From: Pedobacter sp. | GTDB lineage: Bacteria > Bacteroidota > Bacteroidia > Sphingobacteriales > Sphingobacteriaceae | Direction of reading: 5' to 3' | Length of the DNA: 64,000 nucleotides | Assembly: GCF_031119335.1 (NCBI RefSeq) | Contig: NZ_JAVHXT010000003.1 | Location: 271,355 to 335,354, forward strand | Shown here: piece by piece, positions 6,175 to 14,110 of the stretch | How positions within the stretch are numbered: the stretch's first letter is position 1 | How the letters are laid out: each line of letters starts with the position of its first letter | The notes under the pieces: model-generated | The model's database searches: none | Seen by the model: the letters and a program-made list of their open reading frames with translations, nothing else | What the model was told of the DNA's origin: nothing | Position numbers and translations under genes: made by a program

Positions 6175-6240
6175 CAAAGTTATGGCAGTGATGGAGCACT
6201 GGTGATGATTAGCATTAGTCGGAAATGTGATTTTTATCAC
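6175..6240 (-). promoter_or_regulatory. ccoNO promoter with Crp/Fnr-type box
   Basis: On the minus strand TAACTTTG (6182-6175) fits the Bacteroidota -7 consensus TAnnTTTG and would start transcription near 6169, about 29 bp before the ccoNO start codon. The perfect palindrome GTGAT-TTTT-ATCAC (6227-6240) lies upstream, inside the 3' end of ccoS. In longer form it reads TGTGA-N6-TCACT, the Crp/Fnr-family pattern. Its centre is 58.5 bp from the -7 box edge, or about -64 from the predicted start, which is where class I activators bind. No -33 TTTG is obvious, as expected for an activator-dependent promoter. Confidence 0.65.
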
Positions 6241-6403
6241 TTTTCTCGTTGATGTCATTTTTCACCTCATCGTCGAACAAAATTCGAACACTTGGTGTGT
6301 ATACATCATCGTGCTGACCAGTTTTGAGCGCCCAAAAGAAGGCTCCCAGAAAAACCAGTGCTACTAGCACGCTGCAACCGATTAAGAAATAGAGTATGTT
6401 CAT
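6215..6403 (-). CDS. ccoS: cbb3 oxidase maturation protein CcoS
   Basis: The 62-residue protein has one N-terminal helix (MNILYFLIGCSVLVALVFLGAFFWALKTGQ). It then carries the CcoS signature, where a W-A-x-x-x-G-Q-x-D-D motif follows the helix (here WALKTGQHDD) and the segment SVRILFDDE comes after. CcoS is needed to insert redox cofactors into cbb3 oxidase in Rhodobacter. It sits between ccoI and ccoNO as in many genomes. Its last codons overlap the Crp/Fnr-type box of the ccoNO promoter. Confidence 0.9.
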   Translation of the reverse strand: MNILYFLIGCSVLVALVFLGAFFWALKTGQHDDVYTPSVRILFDDEVKNDINEKSDKNHISD

Positions 6404-6610: not shown

Positions 6611-9007
6611 CTAACTGCGTAACCCATTCTTCCTTGCAAAATACCTCGTTGCCAAACTTGTAAAACTGATGATTGTAATGGTGCTTATCGGCATTAAAAT
6701 AGCGGCAACTAAGGGATATAAAGTTCCTTGCACGGCGTAGTAAACCCCTATCAAATTATACGAAGTAGCTATAGCAAAGCTGATTTTTATCGTGGTTAAT
6801 CCATCCTTACTTAATTGGATGAAATTTGGCAACAAACCAAGCGAGCTACCACTCATAATGGCATCACAGCCCGGTGTAAAGTTGTTGATGTTGTCTGTAA
6901 TAGCTATACCGAAATTAGCTTGTTTCAAGGCACCAGCATCATTTAAACCATCGCCCAACATCATCACTTTTTTATTTCTGGCTTGCAAAGCTTTAATTTC
7001 ATCCAACTTTTGCACCGGACTTTGGTTAAACAGCATCGAGGTTGATGGCTTAAATATCTTCTTCAACTGCGGCTCGTCCTTATTCGTATCTCCAGAAAGT
7101 ACTTTTAGGTCATAATCTTCATTTAAATGGCTTATTAAAGGTTCGATACCTTCTCGCCATTGTTGCTCTACCGAGAAGCAGCCTTTGTATACTTCATCTA
7201 TCATGATGTGAACACCACCGTTTTCTTTATCTTGTGCTGCCGCAATTTCGAAAGGTAAGCCACGTTTACTTCCAGCGTAAATCATCCTTCCATTTACAAC
7301 ACCCATAATACCTTTACCCACTACTTCGTTGTACTTGGCAATACTGTAAATCTTACTCGGATTTAAAGCTTTTAGCACTTGTCTGCTCAGCGGATGCGAT
7401 GAATTGTAAAGCAGCGAGGCCACCAACAGCTTCTCGCCCGGAGTTAAATTCCCTTCAAAAGTAATTTCAGAGTGGTGCGTACTGGTCAGCGTTCCAGTTT
7501 TATCGAAAACCACCGTATCTAAATCTGCTAATTGCTCTACAGCATCAGTGTTTTTTACGTAGAAACCTTTTTTATCGAACACCGAAAGAATGGCCGAAAG
7601 CGTAAATGGCGTACTTAAAGCCAACACGCAAGGGCAAGCCACAATTACTACAGCGGTAAATGCCGACCAAGCTTTTGCATTATCACCCATCCACAACCAA
7701 TAACCTGTAGAAACAAAAGCAACCACAAATACACCGATACTGAAGTATTTGGCTATGCTATCGTTAAAATTCCTCTTCTTAAAATCGGTTTTGTAAAATT
7801 CTTTATTCCATAAACCCGTTAAGTAACTTTGCGAAGCCGGCTTAACTACTTCCAGCTCAATAGCTTCACCCATTTGCCTTCCGCCAGCATACACGATCTC
7901 ACCCAAAACCTTCTGCTGTGGCTCGGCTTCGCCAGTTACAAAACTCATGTCCAACCAAGCATCCCCCTTCATTAAGATGGCATCAGCTGGCACAAGCTCA
8001 CCATTGCGTATCAATAGTCGATCCCCAACGACTATCTCGCTAATAGCTACCGGTTTCTCCCGGTTATCTTTGAGGGTAGTTATTGCTATGGGAAAGTAAG
8101 AGCGATAATCCCTATCGAATGAAATATGATGATAAGTGCGTTGTTTTACCCATTTACCCATCAGCAATAAGAATACTAATCCCGTTAAGGTATCCCCAAA
8201 ACCTGGCCCATCATTAAATATGGTAGATATAGCAGTACGTATAAAAAGTACTGCTATAATTAATGCGAGCGGTGTATCCAGATTGATGTATTTTTGTTTT
8301 AAACTGGCATAAGCCGATGTAAAATATTCTTTAGCGCAATAGAAGGTTACCGGAATACAGAATGCCAAGTTTAGCCAAGCAAACAAATCTTGAAACTGTT
8401 TTTCTAAAGCAGATAAACCAAAATACTCTGGAAAGCTGAACAACATGACGTTGCCCATACAGAAGCCGGCAATGGCAATCTTCCAGATCAGCTGTTTGTT
8501 AACTGAGTTTCCTTTCTCCTTTACAACATCTTGTAAACTGATTAACGGCTCGTAACCAATTTGGTTAAGCACTTCTACAACTTGTCTTAAAGATACTTTA
8601 TCGTGCTTATAGCTAATTGTCACTTCTCTTTTCAGGAAATCTATACGAGAACTGAAAATGGCAGGGTTAATTTTATAGAGATGCTCTAACAACCAAATAC
8701 AAGAGCTGCAGTGAATGGCGGGAATGTAAAATGTAACTATAGAATTGTCCTTGTCTTTGTAATTGATGAGCTGGGCTATAATGGTTGGCTCATCCAAATA
8801 TTCGAAATGTCCATCATCTTTTATTCTTTGTCCAGGCGTATCGTTATAAGCGTAATAGTTGCACATATTGTTTTCAGATAAAATCTGATACACGCTTTGG
8901 CACCCTACGCAGCAAAAATCTTTCTCGTCGTAGTTTAGCTTTACAGCAGGCAATTTATCACCGCAATGGTAACATACTGAACTTTGGGTAACGGTTGGAT
9001 TGCTCAT
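6611..9007 (-). CDS. ccoI: Copper-translocating P-type ATPase CcoI/FixI of the cbb3 locus
   Basis: From ATG at 9007 this is a 798-residue P1B ATPase. The ORF track starts 28 codons earlier, but that extension is encoded by an intergenic palindrome and is unlikely to be used; MSNPTVTQ is the natural start. Features in order: an N-terminal cysteine-rich domain (CYHCG, CCVGC), an HMA-like domain with HCSSC, eight helices, the channel motif ACPCVLALS near residue 458, DKTGTLT near 503, the SHPLS motif and GDGLNDAGALK near 687. CcoI exports copper to the periplasmic side for assembly of the haem-copper centre. The two cysteine-rich N-terminal elements are usual for the Bacteroidota branch. Position next to ccoS supports the CcoI call over CopA. 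Confidence 0.92.
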   Translation of the reverse strand: MSNPTVTQSSVCYHCGDKLPAVKLNYDEKDFCCVGCQSVYQILSENNMCNYYAYNDTPGQRIKDDGHFEYLDEPTIIAQLINYKDKDNSIVTFYIPAIHCSSCIWLLEHLYKINPAIFSSRIDFLKREVTISYKHDKVSLRQVVEVLNQIGYEPLISLQDVVKEKGNSVNKQLIWKIAIAGFCMGNVMLFSFPEYFGLSALEKQFQDLFAWLNLAFCIPVTFYCAKEYFTSAYASLKQKYINLDTPLALIIAVLFIRTAISTIFNDGPGFGDTLTGLVFLLLMGKWVKQRTYHHISFDRDYRSYFPIAITTLKDNREKPVAISEIVVGDRLLIRNGELVPADAILMKGDAWLDMSFVTGEAEPQQKVLGEIVYAGGRQMGEAIELEVVKPASQSYLTGLWNKEFYKTDFKKRNFNDSIAKYFSIGVFVVAFVSTGYWLWMGDNAKAWSAFTAVVIVACPCVLALSTPFTLSAILSVFDKKGFYVKNTDAVEQLADLDTVVFDKTGTLTSTHHSEITFEGNLTPGEKLLVASLLYNSSHPLSRQVLKALNPSKIYSIAKYNEVVGKGIMGVVNGRMIYAGSKRGLPFEIAAAQDKENGGVHIMIDEVYKGCFSVEQQWREGIEPLISHLNEDYDLKVLSGDTNKDEPQLKKIFKPSTSMLFNQSPVQKLDEIKALQARNKKVMMLGDGLNDAGALKQANFGIAITDNINNFTPGCDAIMSGSSLGLLPNFIQLSKDGLTTIKISFAIATSYNLIGVYYAVQGTLYPLVAAILMPISTITIISFTSLATRYFARKNGLRS

Positions 9008-9039
9008 TGGTTTGAGTTTTGTTTTTAACTGGGCTTCAA

Positions 9040-9129
9040 AACACCCCGCCCGTTGGGCACCCCTCGGGAAGAGGGGAATTGCATCCGACATTCCCCTCTT
9101 GCAGAGGGGTGGTCGAAGACCGGGGTGTT
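9040..9129. repeat. AACACCCCG...CGGGGTGTT palindromic element
   Basis: Outer arms AACACCCCG and CGGGGTGTT bracket an inner pair GAGGGGAAT and ATTCCCCTC. It fills the gap between hemN and ccoI and would fold into a long stem in RNA. Part of it is translated in the ORF-track extension of ccoI (FPRGAQRAGCFEAQ), which is an artefact. This C-rich element type is frequent between genes in Bacteroidota. It may attenuate read-through from hemN into ccoI. Confidence 0.65.
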
Positions 9130-9140
9130 ATCTATACTAT

Positions 9141-10487
9141 CTATATCGCTGCACTAAATAATTGGGTTTTGGGTTGCTGCTGCCATAATCTTTCATCAAA
9201 AGCCATGCACACATTACGTAAGAAAGATTTTCCTAATGGAAGTATTTTAACTTCTTTATTTCTGATGGCCACTAGTCTATCTGCTATCATGGGTTGTAGG
9301 CGCTCAACTACTGCTGCCGGAATATCATCCACAAAGCAAGTTTCACTTTGGCACATCAAATCAAGAATTTGCCTTCTGATGCGTAAATCTTCCTCGCTTA
9401 GCAAATGACCTTTTTGCACAGCCAATTCATCCGACAGAATAAATTTTTTATATTCCTCTACCGTTTTGGCATTTTGGGCAAAGGCTGTACCGCAATCGCT
9501 GATGGACGATACTCCCAAGCCCAGTAAAATATGTGTATGTTGATCGGTGTAGCCCATAAAATTGCGATGCAACTTACCTTCCTCACTGGCGATGTACAGA
9601 CTATCTGTTTTTAATGCAAAATGGTCCATGCCAATTTCTTCATAACCCGCCGCCACTAGCATTTCTCTCCCTTGTTGGTACAAAGCAAATTTTTCATCGC
9701 CCTGCGGAATATCTTTCTCTGTAAAATGGCGCTGACCAGCTTTAATCCAAGGCACATGTGCGTAACTATAAAAGGCAATACGATCTGGCTTTAGTGCAAT
9801 TACTTCATTAATAGTTTCAATTAACCCACCCATGTTTTGACCAGGCAAACCATAAATTAAATCGTAGTTGATAGATTGATAACCGATACTTCGTGCCAGC
9901 TCAGTAATTTTTAAAACCTGTTCGGGAGTTTGGTAACGGTTAATCATAAACTGCACCTTCGGATCGAAATCTTGGATACCAAAGCTTACCCGTTTAAAAC
10001 CCAAGTTATAAAGCACTTGTAAATGATCTGCTGTGGTATTATCTGGATGTCCTTCGAAAGAACAAGCAGCATCGTCATTAAATTTTGAAGCACCCGCAAT
10101 GGTTTCTAAAAGCTGTTTGAGGTTATCGGCACTGAAGAAAGTTGGTGTACCGCCTCCTAAATGTATTTCCTTGATTTTTGGTCTCTCACCCAACAGTGCA
10201 CAATACATCTCCCACTCTTTTAACAAGGCATCGATATAAGGGAGTTCTACCCCGTGATTTTTCGTGATACGTGTATTACAGCCGCAATAAGTACATAAAC
10301 TTTCGCAAAAAGGCAAATGGATATAAAGACTAATTCCTTCATCTTTGTGCTCACCATAAGCTGTAACTAATCTGCGCTTCCATTGTGTTGCGCTAAAATT
10401 TTCGTTGTCCCAATATGGTACTGTAGGATAGCTGGTATATCTAGGTGCTGCAATGTTATATTTACGTAAGAGTTCGGCGGCTTCCAT
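9141..10487 (-). CDS. hemN: Oxygen-independent coproporphyrinogen III oxidase HemN (radical SAM)
   Basis: The 448-residue protein begins with RYTSYPTVPYW, the HemN N-terminal motif, and has the radical SAM cluster site CESLCTYCGC (about residues 61-70) with the extra CGC cysteine typical of true HemN. The glycine-rich GGGTPTF and GLPGQ motifs follow, and the C-terminal HemN domain starts near residue 360. It converts coproporphyrinogen III to protoporphyrinogen IX without oxygen, which fits haem supply for cbb3 oxidase when oxygen is low. Its ATG overlaps the stop of the upstream gene by one base (TAATG), and GAGGG lies just before, so the two are coupled. Predicted control is by the Crp/Fnr-type promoter at 10947-11012. 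Confidence 0.93.
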   Translation of the reverse strand: MEAAELLRKYNIAAPRYTSYPTVPYWDNENFSATQWKRRLVTAYGEHKDEGISLYIHLPFCESLCTYCGCNTRITKNHGVELPYIDALLKEWEMYCALLGERPKIKEIHLGGGTPTFFSADNLKQLLETIAGASKFNDDAACSFEGHPDNTTADHLQVLYNLGFKRVSFGIQDFDPKVQFMINRYQTPEQVLKITELARSIGYQSINYDLIYGLPGQNMGGLIETINEVIALKPDRIAFYSYAHVPWIKAGQRHFTEKDIPQGDEKFALYQQGREMLVAAGYEEIGMDHFALKTDSLYIASEEGKLHRNFMGYTDQHTHILLGLGVSSISDCGTAFAQNAKTVEEYKKFILSDELAVQKGHLLSEEDLRIRRQILDLMCQSETCFVDDIPAAVVERLQPMIADRLVAIRNKEVKILPLGKSFLRNVCMAFDERLWQQQPKTQLFSAAI

Positions 10488-10927
10488 TAATGTCCCTCCT
10501 CTTCTTCTTTAGTGGTCTTTGCACAATCGTTAGGGCAACAACAAGCCTTACCTACACATTTCCCCGCAGCCCAATTATCAAGATTTTTAATCACCTGTTG
10601 CATTCTGGGCATTACCCCTTCTTCACCTTGCTTAAAAGGTACATTTGCAATTTTAAAACCAGCCACTCCAGCTGCATTTAAATTGATATGCTCGGTTTCG
10701 AAAGACGAAGTAGCAATATATTTAATGCCCAAAGCCCTTAATCCCATAATAAGTTCCTCATCTAAAGGATCTTCATTAAACACAATCAATGCTTCTTTAC
10801 CTTGCGCAAACGGCATAGTTTCCCTACTCAAACTATTGGCTATAATAGTGATATCATGTTTCTTATGATTAGCCAACACCAAGCACTCTTTTTCTTCAGG
10901 TTTAATATTATAAGCAATAGCCTTCAT
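10487..10927 (-). CDS. NAD-domain-less D-lactate dehydrogenase-derived protein with Cys-rich tail
   Basis: Residues 1 to about 100 (MKAIAYNIKPEEKE, KKHDITII, ALGIKYIAT, AGVAGFKIANVP) closely resemble the first half of the catalytic domain of Bacteroidota D-lactate dehydrogenases. The protein then jumps to MQQVIKNLDNWAAGK, which looks like the C-terminal helix of those enzymes. The whole NAD-binding domain of about 190 residues is therefore missing, and with it the catalytic Arg, Glu and His. The substrate loop is changed too (SSFETEHIN where dehydrogenases have RSVGTDHID). A tail with cysteines 124, 129, 130, 131 and 135 (CVGKACCCPNDC) could bind metal. It cannot be an active dehydrogenase. 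Coupling to hemN and the Fnr-type promoter suggest a role in low-oxygen haem, copper or iron handling; that is inference. Confidence 0.75.
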   Translation of the reverse strand: MKAIAYNIKPEEKECLVLANHKKHDITIIANSLSRETMPFAQGKEALIVFNEDPLDEELIMGLRALGIKYIATSSFETEHINLNAAGVAGFKIANVPFKQGEEGVMPRMQQVIKNLDNWAAGKCVGKACCCPNDCAKTTKEEEEGH

Positions 10928-10946: not shown

Positions 10947-11012
10947 CAAAACTAGCTAGCCATGTATCCTTCAGAGTTGAGCGTAGTTATCCAAAAAAGT
11001 GATATTCGTCAT
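10947..11012 (-). promoter_or_regulatory. Promoter of the LDH-like/hemN unit with Crp/Fnr-type box
   Basis: On the minus strand TAGTTTTG (10954-10947) matches TAnnTTTG and places the start near 10941, 14 bp before the start codon. GTGAT-ATTC-GTCAT (10999-11012) has the TGA-N6-TCA core of Crp/Fnr-family sites, though its right half is imperfect. The centre lies 58.5 bp from the -7 box edge, identical to the spacing in the ccoNO promoter. Confidence 0.6.
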
Positions 11013-11389: not shown

Positions 11390-11998
11390 TTAAGTAGCCC
11401 ATTCATTAACCAAACACACTGTCATTGATCTTGGTCCATGCGCTCCCAAAACTAGCGACTGTTCTATATCTGCTGTTTTTGAAGGGCCAGCTATAAAAAC
11501 ACCATAACCATACGCATCCCGTCCAATTATTTCGTACGCTTGATGCATCGTAGGAACAAAAGCTTTTATTGAAACCAGTAAGATTAAATGTTGTGCTATA
11601 AATGGTAATACCCGCTGTAAGGTATTTACCTCGGGCAACCAACAAGCTCCGTTTTCCGCAACTGCAATATCAGCCCTTAGCACTGCCAGTTCTACATTGG
11701 CTAAACTATGCGGATCTGTATCAATAACGTCTAAACCATTAAACTTTAACAATTCGGGAATACTGGATAAAACACGGCCTCCCTGCTTAAAATTTTCATT
11801 AATATAGTTTTCAACTTCTTGTAGATGATCTAGCTCTACAAAATTCCCTCCTACATTACGAAGTGCTAATGCAAATTTGTTTGGAAGATCTTCTGTAGAT
11901 TGAGGGATATTGATATCTGCAAACGATACAAAATTAGGCTGATTTGCCTTTACTGCTTTTAATATGCGCTCTCTACTCGTAACCATATTAACTTTCAT
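11390..11998 (-). CDS. lutC: Lactate utilisation protein C (LutC/YkgG, LUD domain)
   Basis: The 202-residue protein has the LUD-domain features of LutC: the N-terminal TSRERILKAVK helix, the central VLRADIAVAENGACWLPEV stretch and the C-terminal IAGPSKTADIEQSLVLGAHGP motif. LutABC oxidises L-lactate to pyruvate with electrons passing to the respiratory chain; LutC lacks Fe-S motifs. It overlaps lutB by 11 bp. The start MKVNMVTS could equally be at the second methionine. Gene order on this strand is lutA-lutB-lutC as in Bacillus subtilis. Confidence 0.92.
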   Translation of the reverse strand: MKVNMVTSRERILKAVKANQPNFVSFADINIPQSTEDLPNKFALALRNVGGNFVELDHLQEVENYINENFKQGGRVLSSIPELLKFNGLDVIDTDPHSLANVELAVLRADIAVAENGACWLPEVNTLQRVLPFIAQHLILLVSIKAFVPTMHQAYEIIGRDAYGYGVFIAGPSKTADIEQSLVLGAHGPRSMTVCLVNEWAT

Positions 11999-13358
11999 TT
12001 TTTGCTCTTTGTTTGTACCACTCTCTAAAAGATTGTTTTGCTGCGCTTGGCATTTCTCTTTGGTTGTACCAAGGGTTCAATTTATTGTTAAAAAGATATG
12101 GAGCAGCCGTCATCAATCTGCGTCCTACTTTACCTGCCCAACTAAATAAAGATGGATGAGCAAACAAAAAGCTCATTGCTTTCATCCCCCATTTTTTCTT
12201 CGCATCTACATATCCTGCGCTAACCAATTCTTGTCGCCATTGGTAAAGCTGGTTGTGGATATCAATTTTAACTGGGCAAACATTAGTACAAGAGCCGCAT
12301 AAAGTGGAAGCAAAAGGCAAATCAGCATGTTTTTTCATATCCAGATTGGGTGCCAGAATAGAACCTATAGGTCCCGAAATAGTGTATTGGTAACTATGTC
12401 CACCACTTTTTCTATAAACAGGACAGGTGTTCATACAAGCTCCACATCTAATACATTTTAGGGAGTTCCTGAAGCTTTCCCTCCCCAATTGTTGGCTCCT
12501 ACCATTATCAACCAATATAATGTGCATTTGCTGACCCGAACGGGGAGTTCTAAGATGACTAGAATAGGTAGTAATAGGCTGTCCGGTTGCACTACGGGCC
12601 AACAACCTCAAAAAAACTCCCAAATGCCTGCGTTGGGGAACAAGTTTTTCGATACCCATTGATGCAATGTGAACATCTGCCAAGTGCGCCCCCATATCCG
12701 CATTACCCTCATTAGTGCAAATCACCATTTCTCCAGTTTCGGCTACGGCAAAATTAACCCCTGTTAAAGCTGCCCTTCTAGTCAAAAAAACATTTCTTAA
12801 ATCTTGCCTTGCAGCTTCGGTCAATACTTGGGGATCTGCCTCGCCAACAGGCGTACCCAAGTGCTCATGAAACAATTCTCCTATTTCTTCTTTCTTTTTA
12901 TGGATACAAGGCAAAACGATATGACTTGGTGGCTCCTTCGCCAACTGAACAATTCTTTCTCCTAAATCCGAATCGATGACCTCAATGCCATTATTTTCTA
13001 AAAAAGTATTCAAATGGCACTCTTCTGTAAGCATCGACTTACTCTTCACCATTCGGTTAATGCCATTTCTCTTTAAAATTGATAAAACAATTTCATTGTG
13101 CTCGGCAGCATTGGCAGCCCAATGTACCTTTACGCCATTGGCCAAAGCTTTTGCCTCGAACTGCTCTAAATAAGCACTTAAATTAGAGAGCGTATGCTGC
13201 TTGATCTGTGAAGCATTTTCTCTCAATAGTTCCCATTCTGGCAATGTCTTCACGGCTTTATCACGCTTCTGACGTATCCACCAAAGGGTTTCATCGTGCC
13301 AGTTTACCCGCTGTTCATCTGCATTGAAAATAGCCGATAGCTCAGAATGATCTTTCAT
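11988..13358 (-). CDS. lutB: Lactate utilisation protein B (LutB/YkgF), iron-sulfur protein
   Basis: This 456-residue protein combines an N-terminal LUD domain (about 60-290, with AVAETGEMVICTNEGN) and a C-terminal ferredoxin-like part. Cluster motifs CIRCGACMNTCP near residue 306 and CGSCTNVCP near 357 each end in the usual CP. A C-terminal helical domain follows (LFAHPSLFSWAGKVGRRL), normal for LutB. It is the central electron-transfer subunit of the L-lactate oxidising complex. It starts 11 bp after lutA and overlaps lutC. Confidence 0.93.
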   Translation of the reverse strand: MKDHSELSAIFNADEQRVNWHDETLWWIRQKRDKAVKTLPEWELLRENASQIKQHTLSNLSAYLEQFEAKALANGVKVHWAANAAEHNEIVLSILKRNGINRMVKSKSMLTEECHLNTFLENNGIEVIDSDLGERIVQLAKEPPSHIVLPCIHKKKEEIGELFHEHLGTPVGEADPQVLTEAARQDLRNVFLTRRAALTGVNFAVAETGEMVICTNEGNADMGAHLADVHIASMGIEKLVPQRRHLGVFLRLLARSATGQPITTYSSHLRTPRSGQQMHIILVDNGRSQQLGRESFRNSLKCIRCGACMNTCPVYRKSGGHSYQYTISGPIGSILAPNLDMKKHADLPFASTLCGSCTNVCPVKIDIHNQLYQWRQELVSAGYVDAKKKWGMKAMSFLFAHPSLFSWAGKVGRRLMTAAPYLFNNKLNPWYNQREMPSAAKQSFREWYKQRAKNES

Positions 13359-13369
13359 TGATTATCAAA

Positions 13370-14110
13370 TTAACTGGCATTTAAAATTTCTGCGATATGA
13401 ATAATCTGCACTTCGCTACCCTGTCTTTTTAATATTCCCTCCATGTGCATGAGGCAAGACAAATCAACTCCAGTAATATACGTAGCTCCGTTAGCAATAT
13501 GATCTGCAACCCTATCTTTCCCCATTTTTACGGAAACGGCTTCTTCTGCAACACAAAATGTACCACCAAAACCGCAACATTCATCTTTACGGGAAAGCGT
13601 AACCATTTCCAGCTCTTCTACCATGCTCAATAATTGCAAAGGTTTGGAAAATGCTGGTGCTACCAACTCACTCATTTGCGCTAATTTCAATCCCCTCAAA
13701 CCGTGGCAACTTTGATGCAAACCTACTTTATACGGAAACCTAGCCTCCAAATCCTGTACTTTCAATACATCTACTAAAAACTCTACCAACTCATATATCT
13801 TCAACTGTATTTGCTTGGCTTTCTCGGGATGCTTTGATGAATGCAAATGATCTTTTAGGTGTAATGCACAACTTCCAGATGGACAAACGATATAATCGAA
13901 ATCAGCAAAGCTTTTCGTAAACAATTCATCGCAAGCTTGCGTTAAATGGGCAAAGCCAGAATTTGCCATCGGCTGGCCGCAACAAGTTTGTCTTTCTGGA
14001 AAACATACTTTTACCCCTAGCTTCTCTAACAATTCTAATGTTGCTATAGCCGCCTTTGGATAAAACTGATCTACGTAGCAGGGAACAAATAATCCTACAG
14101 TCATCATCAT
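13370..14110 (-). CDS. lutA: Lactate utilisation protein A (LutA/YkgE), CCG-domain protein
   Basis: The 246-residue protein has two cysteine-rich CCG domains: TCCGQPMANSGF near residue 42 and ECCGFGGTFCV near residue 180, with HQSCHGLRGL between them. This is the LutA/GlpC-type fold that binds a noncubane iron-sulfur cluster. It is the first gene of the lut trio and begins directly at the stop of the GH50-like gene (no spacer), which ties the lactate genes to the polysaccharide-utilisation operon. The ORF starts MMMT; any of the three methionines may be used. Confidence 0.92.
   Translation of the reverse strand: MMMTVGLFVPCYVDQFYPKAAIATLELLEKLGVKVCFPERQTCCGQPMANSGFAHLTQACDELFTKSFADFDYIVCPSGSCALHLKDHLHSSKHPEKAKQIQLKIYELVEFLVDVLKVQDLEARFPYKVGLHQSCHGLRGLKLAQMSELVAPAFSKPLQLLSMVEELEMVTLSRKDECCGFGGTFCVAEEAVSVKMGKDRVADHIANGATYITGVDLSCLMHMEGILKRQGSEVQIIHIAEILNAS

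Follow-up and report, generated by a model that had tools for sequence, protein, structure and literature searches.

The window, a stretch of 64,000 nucleotides from Pedobacter sp., carries directly in front of hemN a gene that encodes only part of a D-lactate dehydrogenase (D-LDH). We asked where this protein, called mini-LDH below, came from and what it does in its present position.

The reading frame of mini-LDH is unbroken. A Pfam search matched residues 17-98 to 2-Hacid_dh (PF00389; E 2e-9, above the gathering score), the only match at E up to 10, with no match to the NAD-binding domain PF02826; in the full-length relative L090 that domain is found with an E of 7.5e-45. A search of NCBIfam returned general D-LDH or VanH models alone, far below cut-off. 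Solved D-LDHs align to residues 1-98, and residues 105-120 correspond to the terminal helix of D-LDH (..TIKNLDxW), showing that the two catalytic halves are joined and the NAD domain is gone. This agrees with an earlier note on this DNA, which had described a D-LDH derivative with its NAD domain removed and its catalytic halves directly joined; the loss is indeed precise. The note had also proposed structure prediction, and an AF2 model (mean pLDDT 81.8) showed the D-LDH catalytic fold, overlaying that domain at 1.3-1.9 Å over ~100 residues. Confidence in the Cys tail of this model was low (pLDDT about 50 or less), too low for placing a metal site. The catalytic Arg, Glu and His are absent from all mini forms. 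Mini-LDH cannot work as a dehydrogenase, though databases would label it a lactate dehydrogenase.

Mini-LDH is not peculiar to this strain. Homologues of the same size, which the earlier note had suggested seeking beside hemN, proved abundant: one genome scan gave 16 loci, and 35 of 60 relatives carry one. Strong profile matches (E < 1e-30), mini or full-length, were found in 263 of the 301 genomes of an order-wide sample, all of them Sphingobacteriaceae, though a few of these may be untailed full-length D-LDHs. No member of the family was detected outside Sphingobacteriaceae in a class sample of 295 genomes; the D-LDHs of other families in this sample were all ordinary, full-length and tailless, and matched in the N-terminal lobe. 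Two matches of the genome scan (L002 and L016) carry other family names and are probably misnamed or misbinned. The family is present in most Sphingobacteriaceae, which rules out a recent deletion in one strain; both findings that would have refuted the note are thereby excluded. Pairwise dN/dS within the family is 0.02-0.10, so mini-LDH is maintained by purifying selection; this rules out a decaying pseudogene, as the note had argued. A literature search (LDH, hemN, FixL and the host; most subscription journals outside its coverage) found no paper on mini-LDH, in line with the impression that it is undescribed. That mini-LDH is built in this way, and that its family exists, we regard as practically certain.

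Some irregular copies were also seen. L078 (G029:C8) is a second mini-LDH copy that stops before the Cys tail and lies beside a Crp-type gene and another copy of hemN; it is a decaying or altered duplicate. Genome G097 combines an orphan mini form that has an operator of its own (L126) with a full-length copy whose catalytic Arg is changed to Ser (L127). L076 and L077 are full-length D-LDHs that lack the tail and share 48-50% identity with the N-terminal lobe; the former is flanked by a cation P-type ATPase gene and a PfkB-like gene.

Features of the mini-LDH locus (positions in the window)
Feature	Position	Strand	Remark
mini-LDH, 146 aa	10487..10927	-	NAD-domain-less D-LDH with a 4/5-Cys tail
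Cys tail CVGKACCCPNDC	10523..10558	-	invariant core CX4CXCX3C (C124, C129, C131, C135)
Crp/FNR-type palindrome TGACGAATATCA	11000..11011	-	inferred operator
Bacteroidota -7 promoter element TAGTTTTG	10947..10954	-	TAnnTTTG
hemN, 448 aa	9141..10487	-	radical SAM; PRYTSYPT and CX3CX2CXC motifs
ccoI/fixI-type Cu P-type ATPase	6611..9091	-	downstream of hemN
ccoS-like small protein	6215..6403	-	by eye
Second operator and -7 arrangement	6175..6239	-	before ccoNO
ccoNO, 713 aa	3999..6140	-	CcoN-CcoO fusion of cbb3 oxidase

The hemN assignment is based on a PF04055 match (E 5e-21) and on the PRYTSYPT and CESLCTYCGC motifs read in the sequence. The stop codon of mini-LDH and the start codon of hemN share one base (TAATG), and the coupling claimed for this strain is general: hemN lies directly downstream of the LDH gene across loci, mostly within ~50 bp, for mini and full forms alike. 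In most loci read, a histidine kinase gene comes first, then the gene of a receiver-Crp regulator, the LDH gene in its mini or full form, and hemN; ccoI and ccoNO often follow. The note's description of a haem, copper and oxidase locus was borne out but incomplete, in that a FixL-type kinase and a receiver-Crp regulator are usually present as well; in the window strain this pair is unlinked, at G000:C10. Directly upstream of mini-LDH, and outside the conserved neighbourhood, are lutABC-type lactate utilisation genes (window 11390-14110, minus strand).

The PAS domain of the neighbouring kinase is closest to FixL PAS structures (E 8e-33), and the FixL-type haem-PAS His and GR (Arg) motif was found in 80/80 kinases. 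The regulator combines a receiver and a Crp-type DNA-binding protein in one fusion. In 83 of 104 non-redundant loci the DNA upstream of the LDH gene has the palindrome TGAYN4RTCA followed, at exactly 45 bp, by a TAnnTTTG element, and in 89 the distance is 44-46 bp; no such pair was found in 50 shuffled sets. The whole window genome has five of these arrangements, compared with two for a reversed-pattern control. They precede the mini-LDH operon, ccoNO and a 587-aa gene upstream of the FixL-type kinase, with two elsewhere. The spacing is of a kind expected for a Crp/FNR-type protein acting as a class I activator, and the linked receiver-Crp regulator would be the protein binding the palindrome. 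We consider it likely that mini-LDH is under low-oxygen control.

The remaining two arrangements (G000:C4:19154-19219 and G000:C24:226742-226806) may be chance occurrences or mark regulon members; the latter precedes two genes, one AraC-like and the other similar, by eye, to acetyl-CoA hydrolase/transferase. The product of the 587-aa gene is a protein (IPVLGLGFSIDTPLKVARYGISSV..; 587-615 residues) without a Pfam match, encoded at L213:553-2313 (G000:C10, immediately before the FixL-type kinase gene) and L214:5038-6882. Its gene has the same operator/-7 arrangement in the window genome and adjoins the mini-LDH locus in G329, and it probably belongs to this regulon as a so far undescribed component.

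The reading we favour, tentatively, is that mini-LDH is a domain-excised D-LDH pseudoenzyme of the Sphingobacteriaceae low-oxygen (FixL/receiver-Crp) regulon, and that it serves as a four-Cys feedback regulator of FixL. Falling oxygen would cause FixL to activate the receiver-Crp protein, which would bind the TGAYN4RTCA site and switch on the mini-LDH, hemN and cbb3 genes. Through its four Cys mini-LDH would bind metal, probably as an Fe-S cluster sensitive to oxygen and otherwise as some other thiol-bound metal, and it would feed back on the FixL/receiver-Crp pathway, limiting haem and oxidase induction.

We compared the presence of the LDH-type gene and hemN across the 301 genomes. Both were present in 252, an LDH-type gene only in 11, hemN only in 8 and neither in 30 (Fisher p 6e-25, with hemN absence called at E 1e-80). 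This co-occurrence is explained as well by the main rival as by the feedback model. The rival takes the protein for an accessory of HemN or haem synthesis, whose tail would bind iron, haem or Fe-S and which would assist HemN by repairing its cluster, transferring electrons or handing on its product; coupled translation would keep the pair in step. The short distance to hemN, common to mini and full forms, also speaks for it. However, 11 genomes keep the protein without hemN, the Cys tail being complete in all of those read, and dN/dS stays at 0.08-0.09 between the hemN-less sister species pairs L121/L168 and L141/L170. The 8 genomes with hemN and no LDH-type gene point the same way, and we rate a HemN accessory as rather unlikely.

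The same 11 genomes also lack ccoNO, while a receiver-Crp regulator was found in 11/11. Mini-LDH is thus not just a factor serving HemN or the oxidase, and this pattern of retention points to a role in oxygen sensing more than to one with HemN or the oxidase alone. A cbb3- or copper-specific function is unlikely for the same reason. FixL/receiver-Crp pairs without a mini-LDH protein also exist (for example in G061, G116 and G242), so the protein is dispensable.

The note had further claimed a new CX4CCCX3C tail. The motif is present in the window protein (C124, C129, C130, C131 and C135), but across 58 mini forms C130 varies; the invariant residues include C124, G126, C129, C131 and C135, giving the core listed in the table. 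Nor is the tail new: where relatives have a full-length D-LDH at this locus, it bears the same Cys tail. The tail must therefore be older than the NAD-domain deletions, and its gain after deletion is ruled out. Single lineages, among both mini and full forms, have wholly or partly lost the tail (L172 in G067, L173 in G063 and L151 in G062). The invariant cysteines would also suit a small metal or Fe-S handler, that is a chaperone, a store or a Cys redox switch for the general low-oxygen proteome, in which the D-LDH lobe is merely a scaffold; a low-oxygen regulon containing a Cu-ATPase and haem genes is consistent with such a role. The lack of a tie to ccoNO, with 11 ccoNO-less genomes keeping the protein, argues against it, and we find this explanation distinctly unlikely.

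The full-length relatives are informative about origin. In many members of the genus-level group g26, probably Mucilaginibacter, a tailed full-length D-LDH of ~340 residues occupies the mini-LDH position. Most full-length tailed copies retain the catalytic Arg, Glu and His, while in L127, L163, L164 and L166 the catalytic Arg has become Ser and the tail is kept. One could suppose that the tailed full-length enzyme is the functional form, making fermentative lactate at low oxygen, and that the mini forms are inactive remnants preserving hemN translation, as the retained catalytic residues and the general closeness to hemN would allow. This is very improbable, because the mini forms are under strong purifying selection with invariant residues spread along the protein, persist where hemN is gone, and arose by repeated losses that end at the same domain boundary and spared the tail in every g26 mini form.

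The number of losses was estimated on a tree built from the neighbouring kinase, regulator and hemN proteins. Within g26 and its sister group, well-supported branches force at least seven changes between mini and full forms; the outermost lineages, all of them mini, lie beyond this count and may represent separate losses or one older shared loss. A single origin was rejected both for g26 with its sister group (p-AU 2.6e-36) and for all mini forms (p-AU 7e-10), which rules out one ancient deletion. Mini forms L121 and L168 still contain traces of the sequence on either side of the lost domain (VSPLtI.EH...IPHHLLTSDALQQIA), and the junction sequences differ among mini clades. Fewer losses would be needed if the mini form were ancestral and certain lineages had recombined with an ordinary D-LDH and so regained the NAD domain; the all-mini outer lineages suit this, and counts alone do not give the direction of change. 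The flank traces, the differing junctions and the at least seven changes that one group requires in either case leave us giving it scant credence.

We are confident that the NAD domain was lost repeatedly and independently. The data show that the ancestral gene, placed between hemN and the genes of the FixL-type kinase and receiver-Crp regulator, encoded a D-LDH ending in a CX4CXCX3C tail, and that its NAD domain was removed many times at the domain boundary, while the alpha/beta lobe and the four Cys remain under purifying selection. At least seven separate losses, at a conserved locus beside an oxygen switch, suggest that the leftover part probably does a new job in low-oxygen control. One conserved locus presents a natural series in the conversion of an enzyme, comprising tailed D-LDHs that are still intact, full-length copies that are catalytically dead and many copies that were gutted independently. 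As the whole series is present in living species, both the sequence of changes and the role of what remains of the enzyme are directly testable. The Bacteroidota low-oxygen regulon also gains an overlooked, widespread component coupled to haem synthesis.

Under the feedback model mini-LDH would act like FixT of Caulobacter, built from a dehydrogenase rather than a receiver domain. FixT is an Fe-S-binding single-domain receiver with four Cys (C53, C56, C59, C64) that inhibits FixL; its loss leads to porphyrin excess, and FixLJ up-regulates hemN in that organism (PMC7078487). Both are small alpha/beta proteins with a four-Cys motif in a FixL-type regulon linked to haem genes, control of mini-LDH being inferred. 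In contrast to FixT, mini-LDH gives no receiver-domain (Response_reg) match and is not homologous, and its cysteines differ in spacing (CX4CXCX3C) and in position. The missing receiver match, the other Cys spacing, the poorly modelled tail, the dispensability of the protein and the unlinked FixL pair in this strain all count against a FixT-like role. It is possible, though doubtful, that a new family of regulators responding to oxygen or redox state arose here once a D-LDH had gained a cluster-binding four-Cys tail and come to control the FixL pathway, that the enzyme parts, no longer needed, were then cut out independently at least seven times, and that the function converged on that of FixT.

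The regulon itself resembles the FixL-FixJ-FixK/cbb3/hemN regulons of Alphaproteobacteria in its haem-PAS kinase with the FixL His and Arg, its Crp/FNR-type regulator and site, and its hemN and cbb3 targets. Unlike in those regulons, receiver and Crp are fused here, the promoter is of the Bacteroidota type and an LDH-derived protein is included. With D-LDHs and other D-isomer-specific 2-hydroxyacid dehydrogenases (PF00389 with PF02826), mini-LDH has the catalytic-domain fold and sequence in common, over residues 1-98 and the C-terminal helix, and common ancestry is clear; it differs from D-LDH in having no NAD-binding domain, no catalytic Arg, Glu and His, and an additional four-Cys tail. CtBP is likewise a pseudoenzyme of the 2-hydroxyacid dehydrogenase fold, a dehydrogenase scaffold put to regulatory use, but it retains the NAD domain, which in mini-LDH is the part removed.
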